A stretch of DNA of 49,684 nt, from NCBI GenBank assembly GCA_027452065.1, contig DAIDHC010000001.1:1-49684 (forward strand), in the 5' to 3' direction. The stretch comes from Bryobacterales bacterium. GTDB lineage: Bacteria; Acidobacteriota; Terriglobia; Bryobacterales; Bryobacteraceae. The translations under genes were made by a program, and so were the position numbers. Below the pieces are notes generated by a model. The model was not told the DNA's origin. It saw only the letters and a list, made by a program, of their open reading frames with translations, and ran no database searches. Below, one piece after another: positions 40,876 to 49,519 of the stretch (its first letter is position 1; the number at the start of each line of letters is the position of its first letter).

Positions 40876-43800
40876 ATGGCGTCTCCCATCCCAGCGGATG
40901 ACTTGGAGCGGTCCCAGTCTCTACGCGGACTCCGATTCTTCGACAGCTCCCATGAGGAGGCCCTTCACCGCGCCGTCCGTCTTGCGCGGGAGTATTTCCG
41001 GGCACCCATCGCGCTGGTATCGCTGGCCGGCGATGGCCGCCAATCGCTCGCGTGCAGCCAGGGCTGGCCGCTCCCCGAACATAGCGGCGAACTGTCTTTC
41101 TGCGACCAGGTCGTGCTGTCGTCCGATGCGTTGATCGTGCTCGACGCCTCCGGCGATCCTCGCTTCCTCGGCAATCCCGCCGTCGCCGGCCCCCCGCGTA
41201 TCCGCTTCGTCGCCGGCGTACCTTTGTTCGCCGGCTCCCGGCGCGCCGGCGCCTTCTGCATTCTCGACACCGCACCCCGGGATGCCTTCCCGGCCGACGA
41301 GGCCGCCCGCCTCGGCGACTTCGCGGCTCTGCTGTCCCGTGAAATCGAACTCATGGGAATCTTCAGCCGCCTCGCCGCGGCCGAGGAGGATGCCAGCCGC
41401 AGCGACGCCGAGTACCGCGGCATCTTCCTCAACTCACCCTACGGCATCTATCGCACCACTGTCGACGGGCTCGTGCTCATGGCCAACCCCGCCTTTCTCG
41501 CCATGCTGGGTATCGAATCCGCCGACCAGATTACCGGCCGCAACCTCGAAGCAGAAGGCCTGATTCGCGACCGCGCGCGCTTCCGCGAACAGCTTCTTCG
41601 CGATGGCGCCGTCGACTGCTTCGAAACCGTCTGGCTTGCCCGCGACGGCCACGAGGTCCCGGTCCGCGAATGCGCCCGCGCCGTCCGTTCGGCCTCCGGT
41701 CAGATCCTCTACCTGGAAGGCACCGTCGAGGATGTCTCCGCCCGCCGCTACGCCGAGTTCGAGAGCCGCGAAGCCCGCTCGCTGGTCGAGAAGATTATCC
41801 TCACCATCCCGGCCCTTCTTTACGTTATCGAGATTCCCAGCCACCGCTGCCTTTACATCAACGCTCAGATTTTCGAGTTCCTCGGCTACAGTCCTTCCGA
41901 TCTCGAGCGTTCGAACGACGTTCTGCTCTCCTTCGCCCATCCCGACGACGTCGAGCGCCTGCGTGCCCACCACGCCGCCTTCACCGGCCTCGGCGATGGC
42001 GAGAGCCGGGAGATCGAGTATCGCGCGCGCCATCGCAACGGCGAATGGAAATGGCTTCGCAGCCGCGAAACCATCTTCTCGCGCGACTCCCACGGCCGTC
42101 CCACTCAGATCCTCGGCGCCGCCATGGAGTTCACCGGCGTGCGCAAGATGGAGGAGCGGCTCCAGCGTCAGGAAGAGCGCTGGCAGTTGGCCATCGCCGC
42201 CAACAACGATGGACTCTTCGACTGGGACCTCCATACGAACCAAGTCTTCCGGTCCGTCCGCTGCCTGGAAATCCTCGGACGGCCCGGCATGCCCGAGTCG
42301 ATTGATGGCGACGGCTGGTTCGACTTCATGCACCCGGAGGACCGCGCCTCCGTCGACCAGTGCCTCGCCCAATACCTTTCCCGCCAGGCCCATGCCTGCG
42401 CCCCCGAGTTCCGTATCCTCCATCCCAACGGCGACCAGCGTTGGCTGCACCTGCGCGCCATCGCCCAGTGGGATGAACAAGGGCGCCCCATTCGCCTGGT
42501 CGGCTCGCTCAGCGACATCACGTCCCGCAAGCGCACGGAGATTGCCCTCCGTCTCCAGGCGCAATGGCTGGCCGACGCCCGCGACAAAGCCGAGGCCGCA
42601 ACCCGCGCCAAGAGCGCCTTTCTGGCCACCATGAGCCATGAGATCCGCACCCCGATCAACGCCGTTGTCGGGATGACCGGCTTGCTGCTCGATACCCTCC
42701 TCAGCCGCCATCAACAGGAGTACGTCGAAACCATCCGCAGTTCCGGCGAAACCCTGCTCGCCCTCATCGAGGACATTCTCGATTTCTCGAAGATCGAAGC
42801 CGGCCGCCTCGAACTTGTCCTGGCCGATTTCGACCTCCCCTCGCTTGCCGAGGAGGCCCTCGAGCTTGTCGCCGGCCAAGCCCAGGCCAAGGACCTCGAA
42901 CTCATCGCCTCGCTTGATCCCGCACTTCCCGCTCACGTCCTCGGCGACGCCGGCCGCATCCGCCAGGTGCTTCTCAACCTGCTCGGCAACGCCGTCAAGT
43001 TCACCAGCGCCGGCGAGGTCGTCCTCCGCGCCCGCGCCCGCCCGGACCCCTCCGGCCGGGTCATCCTCCGTTTTGAAGTCGCCGACACCGGCATCGGCGT
43101 CGCTCCCGAAGCCCAGGGCCGTCTGTTCGACGCCTTTACCCAGGCCGACTCCTCCACCACCCGCCGTTACGGTGGCACCGGCCTTGGTCTGGCCATCTCC
43201 AAGCAACTCGTCGAGCTCATGGGCGGCGTCATCGGCATCGAAAGTGCCCCCGGCGTCGGCTCCTGTTTCTGGTTCGAAGTCCCCGTCACCGCGACCCCCG
43301 TCACCAGCGAAACGCCCGGCCTCGATCTCACCGGCCGTACCGCGCTCGTCGTCGAAGACCACCCTACTGCGCTCCGCGTTCTGTCCACGCGCCTGGAAAC
43401 CCTCGGCTGCGCGGTCGCCGGCGCCACATCGCCCGAGGCCGCACTCTCCATCCTCACCTCGGCGCCGCTGCCGGATTTCGCAATCCTCGATTTCGAGCTG
43501 CCCGGTATGGACGGCCGCGAGCTGTCCTACGAGATCCACAATCTTCCGCGCGCCGAATCACTCCCGGTCATCATCGCCACCAACCGCGACAACCACCGTC
43601 TGCTCGCCGAGACTCTTCCGCCCGGAGTCTACGCCATTCTCTCCAAGCCCATTCGCCGCGTCGCCCTGCGAGACGCTGTGCGCCGCGCCCTTCGCATCGG
43701 CTCAGCGTCCGTATCCCGCTCCCCCGTCGCACGAACTTCTCCCGCCGGTCCCCGGATTCTGCTGGCCGAGGACAACCCTACCAATCAGCGCGTCGCCGTG

Positions 43801-44124
43801 CTGATGCTCGAACGCCTCGGCTACTCGATCGATCTGGCCGCTACAGGCAAGGCCGCAGTCGAAGCCTGGAGGCGCGGCTCCTACCCCCTCATCCTCATGG
43901 ACTGCCAGATGCCCGAGCTCGATGGTGTCGAGGCAACCCGCGAGATCCGCCGCCTCGAAGGCCCCGGCCGCCGCACCATCATCATCGCCCTCACCGCCAA
44001 CGCCCAGTTCGAGGACCGCCAGCGCTGCGAAGCCGCCGGCATGGACGACTACCTGGTCAAACCCGTCCGCACCGAGCTGCTCAAAAGCAAGCTCGAACAC
44101 TGGATTGCCCACGCCTCACTTTGA
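40876..44124 (+). CDS. Hybrid histidine kinase: GAF - PAS x3 - HisKA - HATPase - REC - REC
   Basis: A 1082-residue soluble sensor kinase with no membrane segment. Domains in order: GAF (about 25-160), PAS 1 (175-290), PAS 2 (305-420), PAS 3 (430-550), HisKA with phosphorylated His588 in [14 protein letters not shown], HATPase (about 690-810, [27 protein letters not shown]), REC 1 with Asp872 in [12 protein letters not shown], and REC 2 with Asp1009 in [12 protein letters not shown]. Both receiver aspartates are present. No output regulator or Hpt protein is adjacent, so the target is unknown. A TAAACT box lies at 40849-40854. Confidence 0.95.
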
Positions 44125-44910
44125 CTCGCTCCCCCGCTTCCGCCCCCAGTCGAACCGCCGCCCCAGAATCATTTTCACGAGCAGATGATCCGTCCCCCGC
44201 GTCATCCCCACGCCCACGCCGAAGTTGAATTCCCATTCCGGGGAAAAATTCAAATTGATCACCGGCACCAGTTGCTGCTGCTGCTCGTACAACGCATCGA
44301 AGCCTGTGATCGGCCCCAGCGAGCCGTAATACTCCAGCCCGACGTTCACCAATTTTGTGACGTCGTAGCCGGCGGAAAAATTCGGCGAAAACACCAGCCC
44401 CTGCGACACGCTGTAGCCGTGGAACGACCGGTCGAGCGTCGGGTTGAATGAGAGATACCAGTGTCCGATCTGCTTGTCGATGATCGGACGAATCTCGAGC
44501 GTCCAGGTGTCCGGCGAATACGCCGCCCTCTGGTAACCGAACTCGGCTGAAAGACTCACACCGACCGGCCAGTGCCACGATTCCGGCACCCGTACCCTGG
44601 GGCGGATATGATCACCCACCCAGTTCCACCCGTACGTCGAATCGGCACTGGTGAAGATGTAAAATCCGGTTTCGAACCAGTCGTTCCAGCCGTGCGTAAT
44701 CTCGAGCGTCTCATGCAGCGCATGTTCGGTCGGCAGCACTCCGTCGAGGATCGTCTTGCTGCCCTCGAAAGTGAAATTGCTGTGCAACTCCACCATCGTG
44801 TCGCCCGCCGGCACTGTCTCGGCGCCGTACACCTGAATCTCGTAATTGTCCTGCGCCGCCGCTGCTCCCGCCATAGCTAGTCCGATAGCCAACACATGGA
44901 TTCCCTTCAT
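44116..44910 (-). CDS. Exported beta-barrel-like protein
   Basis: A 264-residue exported protein: signal peptide (MKGIHVLAIGLAMAGAAAA), then alternating aromatic/polar strands typical of an outer-membrane barrel (TMVELHSNFTFEG, WNDWFETGFYIFTSADS, SVSLAEFGYQ-like, KLVNVGLEYYGSLG, EWEFNFGVGVGMT) and a final strand ending in basic residues rather than the classical C-terminal Phe. No family name is assigned with confidence. The start at 44910 is set by the signal peptide. The last nine bases overlap the 3' end of the hybrid kinase gene. Confidence 0.72.
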   Translation of the reverse strand: MKGIHVLAIGLAMAGAAAAQDNYEIQVYGAETVPAGDTMVELHSNFTFEGSKTILDGVLPTEHALHETLEITHGWNDWFETGFYIFTSADSTYGWNWVGDHIRPRVRVPESWHWPVGVSLSAEFGYQRAAYSPDTWTLEIRPIIDKQIGHWYLSFNPTLDRSFHGYSVSQGLVFSPNFSAGYDVTKLVNVGLEYYGSLGPITGFDALYEQQQQLVPVINLNFSPEWEFNFGVGVGMTRGTDHLLVKMILGRRFDWGRKRGSESK

Positions 44911-45107: not shown

Positions 45108-45142
45108 CGTGTCTGTAGCTGAATCCGCGGGAGGTGCTTCTG

Positions 45143-46390
45143 ATGTCCCAAGTCGATTCTGTGCGTCGTTCCGTCCCTCTCATCCCCCTCCGACTTCGGT
45201 TTCACAGCCTCTGGATCGTCCCGGCCGCCTGTGTCGGCATCTTCCTGTCGCCCGCCGCGCGTGGGCTTCTCCTGTCGGAAAATTTTCTTCCCCACGTTTT
45301 TTGCTATCGCTCCAATACCGGACTCATCGCTCTCCACGCCATCTCCGACTTGCTGATTTTTCTTTCCTACGTCACCATCTCTGTCTCCCTCATCTACTTT
45401 GAGCGCCGCATCGACCCCAACCTCCGCTTGCCCTGGCTGTTCCGGGCCTTCAGCGCCTTCATCGTCGCCTGCGGCTTCACTCACCTGATGGAAGTCATCG
45501 TCCTCTGGGACCCGCTGTACTGGCTCGCCGGAGGTGTCAAGCTCGCCACCGCCGCCGCCTCCGTCGGCACGGCCGTCGCCTTCCCTCTCGCCATGCCCCG
45601 CATATTCGCGCTCATTGCCGACGCCCATCTGTCGGAGATTCGCGGCCGCCGCCTCGAAATCGCCAACGCCGAGCTCGAACTCCGCAACATTGAAGTCGAG
45701 CGCGTCAATCGCGAGCGTGCAGAGTTCTTCACTCGCATGAGCCACGAGTTCCGCACTCCGCTCAACGCCATCTCCGGCTTTTCCGATCTGCTCGCCGAGT
45801 CCGGCAGTGGCCTCGATGAGCGCCGGCGCCGCTTCGTCACGCGGATCCAGGACGCGGCCCGCCATCTCCTCTCGCTTATTGAGGACATTCTCGACTTTTC
45901 CCGCGTGGACACCGGCCATATCGATCTCTCGCGCGAGCCGCTCGACATCTCCGGCGCCCTTGCCGACGCCCTGTCGACCATCGCTCCCCTGGCCGCCGCC
46001 AAATCCATCCGCCTCTCCTCGCCCCCCTCAGACCCGCTTCTGGTCCTCGCCGACCGCCTCCGGCTCCGCCAGATCCTCTACAACCTGCTCGCCAACGCAG
46101 TTAAGTTCACTCCCGACGGCGGCGAGATCCGCATGGAGGCTTCCTCCGTCCCCGGTTTTGCCGTCGTCGCCGTCTCCGACAGTGGTATCGGAATCTCCGC
46201 AGCCGACCAGACCTATATCTTCGAACCCTACTGCCGCGTGGCCTCGGGCGCTCCCGAGGGTGCCGGCCTCGGACTCGCCATCACCCGCCGCCTCGTCGAA
46301 GCTCACGGCGGCTCCATCCACGTCATGAGCGCGCCGGGGCAGGGAAGCCGCTTCACCTTCACTCTCCCTCTCGCCGGCGAGTCCCCCTGA
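45143..46390 (+). CDS. Histidine kinase with ETR1-type ethylene/copper-binding membrane domain
   Basis: A 415-residue membrane kinase. After an extra N-terminal membrane helix (about 21-45) comes the three-helix domain of plant ethylene receptors and their bacterial relatives. The residues known to matter in ETR1 are all here with near-identical spacing: Asp69 and Tyr76 ([10 protein letters not shown]) and Ile107, Cys110 and His114 (FIVACGFTH), corresponding to Asp25, Tyr32, Ile62, Cys65 and His69. Then a helix, HisKA with His201 in [14 protein letters not shown], and HATPase ([28 protein letters not shown]). GGGAGG lies eight bases before the ATG; no GAF and no receiver. Confidence 0.93.
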
Positions 46391-46524
46391 TCTCGCTGCC
46401 GCTTCATTTTTCACCCGCTCTCATGAACCGATTTGCAATCGAAAATCACTCAGTGCTGGAATACCCTGAGCAATTTGGGAGCCCGCGGCCTGTCCCGATG
46501 CTCCCGGGAAAGAAGGTCAGTCAC

Positions 46525-48006
46525 GTGCCCTGGAAACCGCGCCCGTCCCGAACCATACTTTTTTTCCTGGCGGCCGCTCCCGCCTTCGCCGCCGCACCGG
46601 CAAAACTCGACGTCGCGGCGAGTTCCCGCACTCTCGTTGCCGGCCAGACACTGCGCTTGCGCATCACTCTGCTCGACGCCGCCGATCACCCGGCCCCCGC
46701 GCCCCGGCCATTTCCCGTGCAGCTTCAGTTGCGCACGCCTTCGAACGCCGTCGTCCCGCTTTCCTCCGGCACAATTCCCGCCGGCCAGAGCTCGCTCGAC
46801 ATGTCCGCGCCTTTGCGTGATGCCGGCCTGGTCTATGTCTGGGCCCGCAATCCGGAACTCCTCCCCGGCGGCCAGTTCGTCAACGTCCGTCCGCCATCCG
46901 GCGCGTCCGCTTCGGCCGCCCATTCTCAACTCAAGCCGATTCCGGTCCGCGCAGCGCCTCCTGCCGCCGCCGCATCGGCCCCCGCGCCTCCTCCGCCGCC
47001 CCGGCCCACGATCGAACGCGCCCCAGCCAGTGTCGACTCGGCCATCGATGCCGACACGGCGGGGGTGAAAAAGAAGGTCGTCCGCGCCGAAGTGTCTGCC
47101 CCCGCTCCGCCGCCCTCCATGCTGCCCGCGATCACCCTCCGCTACAGCCCACAGCGCGACCTGCTTGCAAACGGCTCCGATCCCGCCGCTGTTGAGGCCT
47201 TCCTCGTCGGCGATGTCTCTGCCGCTCCGGCCGACATCCGGCTCACGCTTTTCGACAGCACCAACAGCCTCAAACCGGCCCCGCTCGTCATCCCTGCCGG
47301 CCAGTCGGCAGGACGCTCCACAATCACCTCCAGCCAGCCCGGCGCGGTAACGATCGAGTTTCTCGGCAGCAACCCGCGAGTGGAATTTCAGGGCGGCAAG
47401 ACCCTCAGCGTCCGCTTTGTACCTCCCATCTCAAGAGTGTCACTCCAGGCCAGCCCGCCCCGCATTTCGCTCGTCGACACCGCCGAGCTGATCGTCAGCC
47501 TCGCTGACGCCGAAGGCCGCAATTGGGTCACCGACTCCAAGCGCCCCATCTCTCTGTACATCACTTCCGGCCGCGGCCAGATTACCCGGCAGGACATTGA
47601 GATTCCCGCCGGACAGTTCGAGACCCGGGCGCGCTTCGTGCCCGAATGGCCGGGTGTCGTCAGCGTCTCCGCCGCAACTCCCAACCTGCTCACCGTCAAC
47701 GTGCCCTTGAGCGTCACCTGGCCGCTTGCCCTCTTATTTTGCTCCGCCCTCGGCGGCATGATCGGCGGCTTCCTGTCCAAGCAAACCCGGAAACGCGGCG
47801 ACAAGTGGCGTGTTCCCACCGGCCTGTTCACGGGTTTTCTCTTCTACTGGGCGTGCATCTTTCTCGGCGTGAGCGCGCTGCTCGGACCCGCGGTTCTCAA
47901 TCCCCTCAGCGCTCTCGCCGTCTCCGCGGTCGGCGGCTGGCTGCAGACCGAAGTCTTCACCATCGTCGGCGATTTGCTCCGTCCCCGCGCTGCCGCCGGC
48001 GCCTGA
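46525..48006 (+). CDS. Ig-like-domain protein with C-terminal membrane anchor
   Basis: A 493-residue exported protein I cannot assign to a named family. Signal peptide (PWKPRPSRTILFFLAAAPAFAAAP), Ig-like domain 1 (about 25-135, LVAGQTLRLRITLLDAADHP), a Pro/Ala-rich linker, domain 2 (about 200-305, with AIPAGQS-type turns), domain 3 (about 310-400, RVSLQASPPRISLVDTAELI), and a C-terminal membrane region of three to four helices with GGMIGGFLSKQTRKRG and AVSAVGGWLQTEVFTIVGDLL. The GTG at 46525 has AAGAAGG eight bases upstream and precedes the signal; an ATG at 46423 or 46498 would lengthen it. Soluble part probably faces the periplasm. Confidence 0.68.
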   Translation: MPWKPRPSRTILFFLAAAPAFAAAPAKLDVAASSRTLVAGQTLRLRITLLDAADHPAPAPRPFPVQLQLRTPSNAVVPLSSGTIPAGQSSLDMSAPLRDAGLVYVWARNPELLPGGQFVNVRPPSGASASAAHSQLKPIPVRAAPPAAAASAPAPPPPPRPTIERAPASVDSAIDADTAGVKKKVVRAEVSAPAPPPSMLPAITLRYSPQRDLLANGSDPAAVEAFLVGDVSAAPADIRLTLFDSTNSLKPAPLVIPAGQSAGRSTITSSQPGAVTIEFLGSNPRVEFQGGKTLSVRFVPPISRVSLQASPPRISLVDTAELIVSLADAEGRNWVTDSKRPISLYITSGRGQITRQDIEIPAGQFETRARFVPEWPGVVSVSAATPNLLTVNVPLSVTWPLALLFCSALGGMIGGFLSKQTRKRGDKWRVPTGLFTGFLFYWACIFLGVSALLGPAVLNPLSALAVSAVGGWLQTEVFTIVGDLLRPRAAAGA

Positions 48007-48925: not shown

Positions 48926-49480
48926 CTATCCCGCCGCCGCCGACGTTGCCTGCCGGAACAGATTCGCGGTCTCCTGGTTTCGCGCGTCGCTGATCCCCAG
49001 CCGGTGGCACTGCGCCGCCGCCGTCGCCCAGTCTCCCGCATCCACCGCGTTCAGCATCGCCGGAAACTTCATCAATCCGCCCAGCCCCAGGTTGAACGCC
49101 ATGTCGAACAGCGCCTCTTGCACCGTTTCCGGATAGCTGTCCCAGCGCGGCAGCGTACGCCGGAGCTGCGCCTCGAACGAGACGACGTCCGCCTGAACCA
49201 GCGCCTCGATGTCCGCGTCGCCCATGCGGCATTGCGTCAGGCTCGCGTAAGCCGCTGCCACCATGCCCTTCGGCGCCGCGCTCACCGCCCCGTAGTCCGC
49301 CGTCACCGCTTCAGTCCCCGCCGGCGCTCCGCCCACCTGCCATGCAAGCGCCGCGGCTGCACCCGCGCTCGGCATCGCATGGCCAACCCCCACCGTTACC
49401 TCGCCTCCCGTACATTTGTACATGTACGGAATTGACCCTTCGTATGTGCGCAGCCTCGCTGCGACCGCCGCCTGGTCCAT
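48926..49480 (-). CDS. T4-type lysozyme (GH24) with Asp-to-Cys substitution
   Basis: A 184-residue muramidase-like protein of the T4 lysozyme family without a signal peptide. The active-site region LRTYEGSIPYMYKCTGGEVT aligns with T4 lysozyme with no gap: Glu14 (T4 Glu11), Cys23 (T4 Asp20), Thr29 (T4 Thr26), then VGVGH. The C-terminal lobe has VQEALFDMAFNLGLGG, the usual GH24 helix. A ~25-residue Ala/Gly-rich insertion follows GHAMPS. T4 lysozyme D20C is known to stay active, so this is not clearly a dead enzyme. AGGAGG lies six bases before the chosen ATG. No holin or phage genes are nearby. Confidence 0.85.
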   Translation of the reverse strand: MDQAAVAARLRTYEGSIPYMYKCTGGEVTVGVGHAMPSAGAAAALAWQVGGAPAGTEAVTADYGAVSAAPKGMVAAAYASLTQCRMGDADIEALVQADVVSFEAQLRRTLPRWDSYPETVQEALFDMAFNLGLGGLMKFPAMLNAVDAGDWATAAAQCHRLGISDARNQETANLFRQATSAAAG

Positions 49481-49519
49481 ATCGAGCCTCCTCAGCCCCA
49501 CCCAGACTCCGAGCTTTCG

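Follow-up and report, generated by a model that had tools for sequence, protein, structure and literature searches.

A putative copper-carrying sensor kinase with an ETR1_N domain in a bryobacteral acidobacterium belongs to a clade lacking Pro36

Introduction

Does a histidine kinase of a soil acidobacterium, whose membrane domain resembles that of the plant receptor ETR1, sense ethylene? The question is raised by a gene in the window, i.e., the 49,684-nucleotide stretch of Bryobacterales contig DAIDHC010000001.1 analysed here, for which a sequence-only reading had proposed a complete ETR1-type site for ethylene and copper. Ethylene binding by ETR1 requires seven residues, with Ile35, Pro36, Ile62, Cys65 and His69 named among them (PMC6586836). 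In Arabidopsis ETR1 (AtETR1), copper needs Cys65, and binding needs Asp25 and Cys65 (PMC11819568). No paper on ethylene-receptor homologs as histidine kinases of Acidobacteria was found among the open-access papers searched.

Gene and genomic setting

The open reading frame is as the sequence-only reading had drawn it, with an ATG start and a plausible ribosome-binding sequence, and its carrier is indeed an acidobacterium, of the bryobacteral lineage. A PF25487 search identified it as the sole ETR1_N gene of the 5.3 Mb source assembly.

45130..45135, + strand: GGAGGT, Shine-Dalgarno-like, 7 nt 5' of the ATG (sequence)
45143..46390, + strand: sensor histidine kinase gene of the ETR1_N type lacking Pro36, 415 aa (open reading frame and Pfam)

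The 5' side of the gene is occupied by a GAF-PAS hybrid kinase (40876-44124, + strand) and by a reverse-strand gene without a Pfam match (44116-44910). The hybrid kinase is a large upstream protein with GAF, several PAS, HisKA, HATPase_c and two receiver domains. On the 3' side, a + strand gene of no confident family (46423-48006) begins 32 nt past the kinase stop. No response regulator adjoining the kinase gene was seen in the window, and no neighbour gene recurred among the loci of the clade described below, apart from the kinase itself; the kinase is therefore regarded as an orphan. Conserved gene neighbours were accordingly dropped as a clue to function. Elsewhere in the window, an open reading frame on the - strand (48926-49501) resembles, by eye, a phage-type lysozyme (YEGSIPYMYKCTGGEVTVGVGH).

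Domain architecture and kinase core

The PF25487 (ETR1_N) match scores 103.5 bits (cut-off 27), covers residues 61-156 and profile positions 2-96 of 97, and is far above chance. The curated cut-off is thus passed over the full length of the profile, which supports the homology to the ETR1 ethylene/copper domain that had been read from the letters. The arrangement of the domain also fits the family, with three membrane helices, Asp69 in helix 1 and Cys110 and His114 in helix 2. The protein had been described as a simple kinase, and Pfam gives only HisKA and HATPase_c beside ETR1_N, with no GAF, PAS or receiver domain in the 415 aa. The motifs of a HisKA-type sensor kinase are present (His201, N box at 314, DSGIGI at 346 and GAGLGLAI at 373), and the HisKA/HATPase kinase is apparently intact, as judged from these motifs.

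45323..45610, + strand: ETR1_N (PF25487) match (Pfam)
45716..45916, + strand: HisKA domain, residues 192-258, with phospho-acceptor His201 (Pfam and motif)
46052..46375, + strand: HATPase_c, residues 304-411, with N, G1 (DSGIG) and G2 (GAGLGL) boxes (Pfam and motifs)

Predicted structure

Structure prediction had been proposed as a check, and an AlphaFold2 model was built with 54 aligned relatives. The resulting prediction is confident (mean pLDDT 87.6) and places one additional helix, H0, before the three-helix domain, in agreement with the single extra N-terminal helix of the sequence-only reading. The modelled helices are H0 (17-34), H1 (59-89), H2 (97-122) and H3 (126-194), the last running unbroken into the signalling helix.

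45191..45244, + strand: additional membrane helix H0 at the N terminus, residues 17-34, as in most members of the clade lacking Pro36 (AlphaFold2, clade comparison)
45290..45304, + strand: PHxxC motif (Pro50, His51, Cys54) ahead of helix 1 (near-invariant in the bacterial ETR1_N alignment)
45317..45409, + strand: helix 1, residues 59-89, with Asp69, Tyr76 and Ile79 (AlphaFold2, alignment)
45380..45382, + strand: Ser80 codon TCT at the ETR1 Pro36 position, on the helix face shared with Asp69 and Tyr76 (sequence, helix wheel)
45431..45508, + strand: helix 2, residues 97-122, with Ile107 and with Cys110 and His114, the predicted Cu(I) ligands (AlphaFold2, alignment)
45518..45622, + strand: membrane part of helix 3, residues 126-160, with Lys133, Ser140 and Pro152, continuing to the signalling helix (AlphaFold2, alignment)

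Among solved structures, the sensor-domain profile matched no PDB chain, and Foldseek returned generic helical bundles only (Z < 10).

The putative ethylene/copper site

Asp69, Tyr76, Ile107, Cys110 and His114 occur with the spacings of 7, 3 and 4 that had been reported, but the description of the site as complete does not hold, as it had covered five of the seven ETR1 residues. The full set of counterparts is Asp69 (Asp25), Tyr76 (Tyr32), Ile79 (Ile35), Ser80 (Pro36), Ile107 (Ile62), Cys110 (Cys65) and His114 (His69). Hence six of the seven residues that mark an ETR1-type receptor are kept, and Pro36 is replaced by Ser80. Tyr32 is reportedly the seventh required residue of ETR1, according to work by Wang in 2006. 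Further counterparts are Lys133 (Lys91), Ser140 (Ser98) and Pro152 (Pro110). The distance from Asp69 to Cys110 is 41, against 40 in ETR1, and the loop between helices 1 and 2 is one residue longer.

A Pro36Leu substitution in tomato Never-ripe (NR) impairs ethylene perception (PMC7285140). Because Pro36 is essential in ETR1 and this substitution is harmful in tomato, ethylene binding by the Ser80 protein is not to be assumed. On a helix wheel, Ser80 lies 20 degrees from Asp69 and 40 degrees from Tyr76, and therefore on the copper-facing side. With its hydroxyl on that side of helix 1, the protein probably binds its ligand with an affinity or specificity unlike that of the plant and Azospirillum receptors. 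A sequencing error behind Ser80 was rejected, since the protein also bears other marks of the clade.

The PHxxC motif is conserved both in and out of the clade (Cys in 126/128 rows, His in 119/126), and could form a disulfide or serve as a further metal-binding site. One cysteine in this region has been remarked upon in cyanobacteria (PMC6682694).

A clade lacking Pro36

A phylogeny had also been proposed as a check, with placement outside the ethylene-binding group named as the result that would speak against an ETR1-type receptor. An IQ-TREE analysis was carried out on 130 domains picked for intact Asp25, Tyr32, Cys65 and His69, with column 36 removed (131 columns) and bootstrap values incompletely settled; Ile35, Ile62, Lys91, Ser98 and Thr101 were not criteria. 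AtETR1 (on a long branch) and AzoEtr1 of Azospirillum brasilense (L147) were included, and SynEtr1, GeiEtr1 and GeiEtr2 were left out. The kinase falls inside a 45-row clade at 99/93 with 35 Ser, 10 Ala or Phe and no Pro at position 36, while AtETR1, AzoEtr1 and 72 of the 73 Pro36 rows lie outside. Within the clade it belongs to a five-row acidobacterial subclade at 96/90 (with L082, L083, L087 and L016). The tree thus sets the kinase apart from both reference receptors and comes near the contrary placement, but an approximately unbiased (AU) test in which only the query was taken from the clade was not significant (p = 0.29), so that the query may still lie outside it.

The residues that were not used to choose rows are nonetheless conserved throughout the clade: Ile35, Ile62, Ser98 and Thr101 each in 45/45 rows and Lys91 in 44/45. 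Other traits go with the clade. At a hydrophobicity mark of 1.6, and counting only rows with enough sequence, the extra N-terminal hydrophobic helix was called in 33/42 clade rows versus 2/39 outside, and the Asp25-Cys65 spacing of 41 is found in 54/65 Ser36 domains versus 8/160 Pro36 domains. The query has all three features (Ser80, H0 at 17-34 and a spacing of 41), together with the further clade marks Ala102 (ETR1 Gln57), Val77 (ETR1 Phe33) and Pro148. Four Ser36 rows (L059, L208, L212 and L272) fall amid Pro36 rows, so Ser36 also arose separately. A Phe36 group from Acidobacteriota and Rhodanobacteraceae (L017, L018, L029, L030 and L140) has a spacing of 44 and, for the rows entered in the tree, is nested within the clade.

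Clade members come from at least nine phyla, with records from Acidobacteriota, Verrucomicrobiota, Cyanobacteriota, Nitrospirota, Pseudomonadota, Elusimicrobiota, Gemmatimonadota, Planctomycetota, Myxococcota and Binatota. Their output modules differ and comprise HisKA, HisKA_3, PAS-histidine kinase, hybrid histidine kinase and a GGDEF-EAL protein (L016). The last, from an acidobacterium of the host's class (L016:1348-3282), carries ETR1_N, PAS, GGDEF and the start of EAL; from its domain content, it is possibly a gas-controlled cyclic-di-GMP enzyme. No earlier description of such a clade or subtype was found among the open-access papers searched, though key papers may have noticed it before. 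To our knowledge, no member has been assayed.

Frequency and distribution

Frequencies were taken only from PF25487 censuses of Acidobacteriota, Cyanobacteria, Pseudomonadota and Verrucomicrobiota, because the peptide C[GA][AFG]TH[LFV][ML]EV, used in a contig scan that added 65 loci, favours the clade. Among the 204 census domains with all site columns (matches retrieved in part, above all in cyanobacteria), Pro36 is the least conserved of the seven residues, at 77% versus 90-94%. Where Asp25, Tyr32, Cys65 and His69 are intact (163 domains), position 36 holds 140 Pro, 14 Ser, 6 Ala, 2 Phe and 1 Gly. Clearly degenerate sites are seen in a minority of the family. Some sites of the cyanobacterial set are altered as well, for example with Cys65 changed to Tyr in L283 and to Gly in L285. 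Up to nine ETR1_N genes per genome occur in cyanobacteria (G784, G754 and G780).

Acidobacterial ETR1_N proteins are not rare, being present in 51/257 genomes of the host's order. Lys91 is a residue linked to receptor output; in one Bryobacteraceae group (L007, L079 and L080), the seven residues are intact and Lys91 is changed to Asn. One of three other genomes of the host genus has an ETR1_N gene, of the Pro36 type (L002), and the Bryobacteraceae Ser36 proteins L006, L066 and L076 are not the nearest kin of the query in the tree. This genus distribution and tree kinship point to a patchy inheritance of the kinase, probably involving horizontal transfer. A Pro36 domain and a clade member occur together in the genomes of Microseira (G650) and Methylocapsa (G651), which fits separate roles.

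Comparison with known systems

The kinase shares with Arabidopsis ETR1 the three-helix ETR1_N domain, the counterparts of Asp25, Tyr32, Ile35, Ile62, Cys65, His69, Lys91, Ser98 and Pro110, and the histidine kinase core. It differs in having Ser for Pro36, one more loop residue and the extra N-terminal helix, and it lacks the GAF and receiver domains of ETR1, a subfamily 1 receptor that lies outside the clade. Plant subfamily 2 receptors (ETR2, EIN4 and ERS2) likewise have a supplemental hydrophobic N-terminal helix ahead of the three-helix domain (PMC5285503), but they reportedly keep the seven residues, and homology of their helix with H0 is not implied.

AzoEtr1, a bacterial ETR1_N sensor kinase with the Cys/His copper site, has demonstrated 14C-ethylene binding (PMC11819568). 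Unlike the query, it lies outside the clade, has all seven residues, contains a PAS domain and is encoded by a gene that overlaps one for a response regulator; the query has no such neighbour. The cyanobacterial SynEtr1 (slr1212) and GeiEtr1/2 are also bacterial kinases with an ethylene-binding domain, but all three are reported to retain the seven residues, and SynEtr1 has a cyanobacteriochrome domain. The nearest relatives, L082 (Acidobacteria gp1, 56%) and L083 (Acidobacteriaceae MAG, 50%), share Ser36, the extra helix and the spacing of 41. L082 has two receiver domains and L083 a HisKA_3 core, neither of which is found in the query.

Proposed mechanism and alternatives

The kinase is likely to be an orphan four-helix membrane sensor whose ETR1_N domain, of the distinct clade lacking Pro36, makes it a Cu(I)-carrying gas sensor. 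The domain family, the site residues, the clade, the extra helix and the intact kinase motifs are observed, and the copper, the gas ligand, the direction of signalling and the partner are what we infer. Going by the conserved ligand residues, the protein very probably binds Cu(I), which Cys110 and His114, with Asp69 close by, would hold within the helix bundle. This Cu(I) would in turn bind a small pi-acceptor gas. Ethylene is the first candidate and is about as likely as not to be a physiological ligand. Motion could then be relayed via helix 3 (Lys133, Ser140 and Pro152) to the continuous signalling helix, whose movement would alter autophosphorylation at His201, and output would be carried by a response regulator encoded elsewhere. 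In ecological terms, the kinase might respond to plant ethylene.

It is possible, though we doubt it, that Ser80 is neutral and that the protein is a canonical receptor, binding as ETR1 does and responding to ethylene from plants or soil. Of the seven essential residues, six are retained, as is Lys91; Pro36 is the least conserved of them in the unbiased sample, and Ser is tolerated in the Pro36 branches, since L059, L208/L212 and L272 have the rest of the site intact. However, the essential role of Pro36 in ETR1 and the harm done to tomato perception by Pro36Leu speak against neutrality, the characterised proteins (the AtETR1 family, SynEtr1, AzoEtr1 and GeiEtr1/2) reportedly keep all seven, and the clade is separate, with another helix number and loop. 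These joint changes of pocket residue, loop and helix number beside invariant copper ligands would instead suit a clade that senses another small Cu(I) ligand (e.g., CO, acetylene or an alkene other than ethylene) or the availability of copper itself. The co-occurring members in Microseira and Methylocapsa suggest separate jobs, and clade records from peat, groundwater, cyanobacterial and soil sources do not single out plants. We hold this, too, to be somewhat unlikely; such ligands are conjectural, and the gene neighbours are uninformative.

That the sensor domain binds no ligand and merely anchors and dimerises the kinase is very improbable. One essential residue is altered and a minority of the family has clearly decayed sites, but Ile35, Ile62 and Ser98 are invariant in the clade, and Lys91 nearly so, though they were not selected for; moreover, the clade covers at least nine phyla and the kinase motifs appear intact. 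The orphan Cu(I)-carrying gas sensor is the reading we prefer.

Implications

Bacterial 'ethylene receptors' are now named by homology and by seven residues of one plant protein. The clade lacking Pro36 is a natural monophyletic group that keeps six of these residues and shows correlated structural changes. It thus bears on whether Pro36 sets ethylene specificity and on how reliably ethylene sensing is assigned to soil bacteria. A bolder proposal, which we hold to be somewhat unlikely, is that the clade, with members in at least nine bacterial phyla, represents a sensor type of its own, in which the ETR1 copper site serves a ligand other than ethylene. If so, the window protein would detect a gas or metal signal new to this fold.
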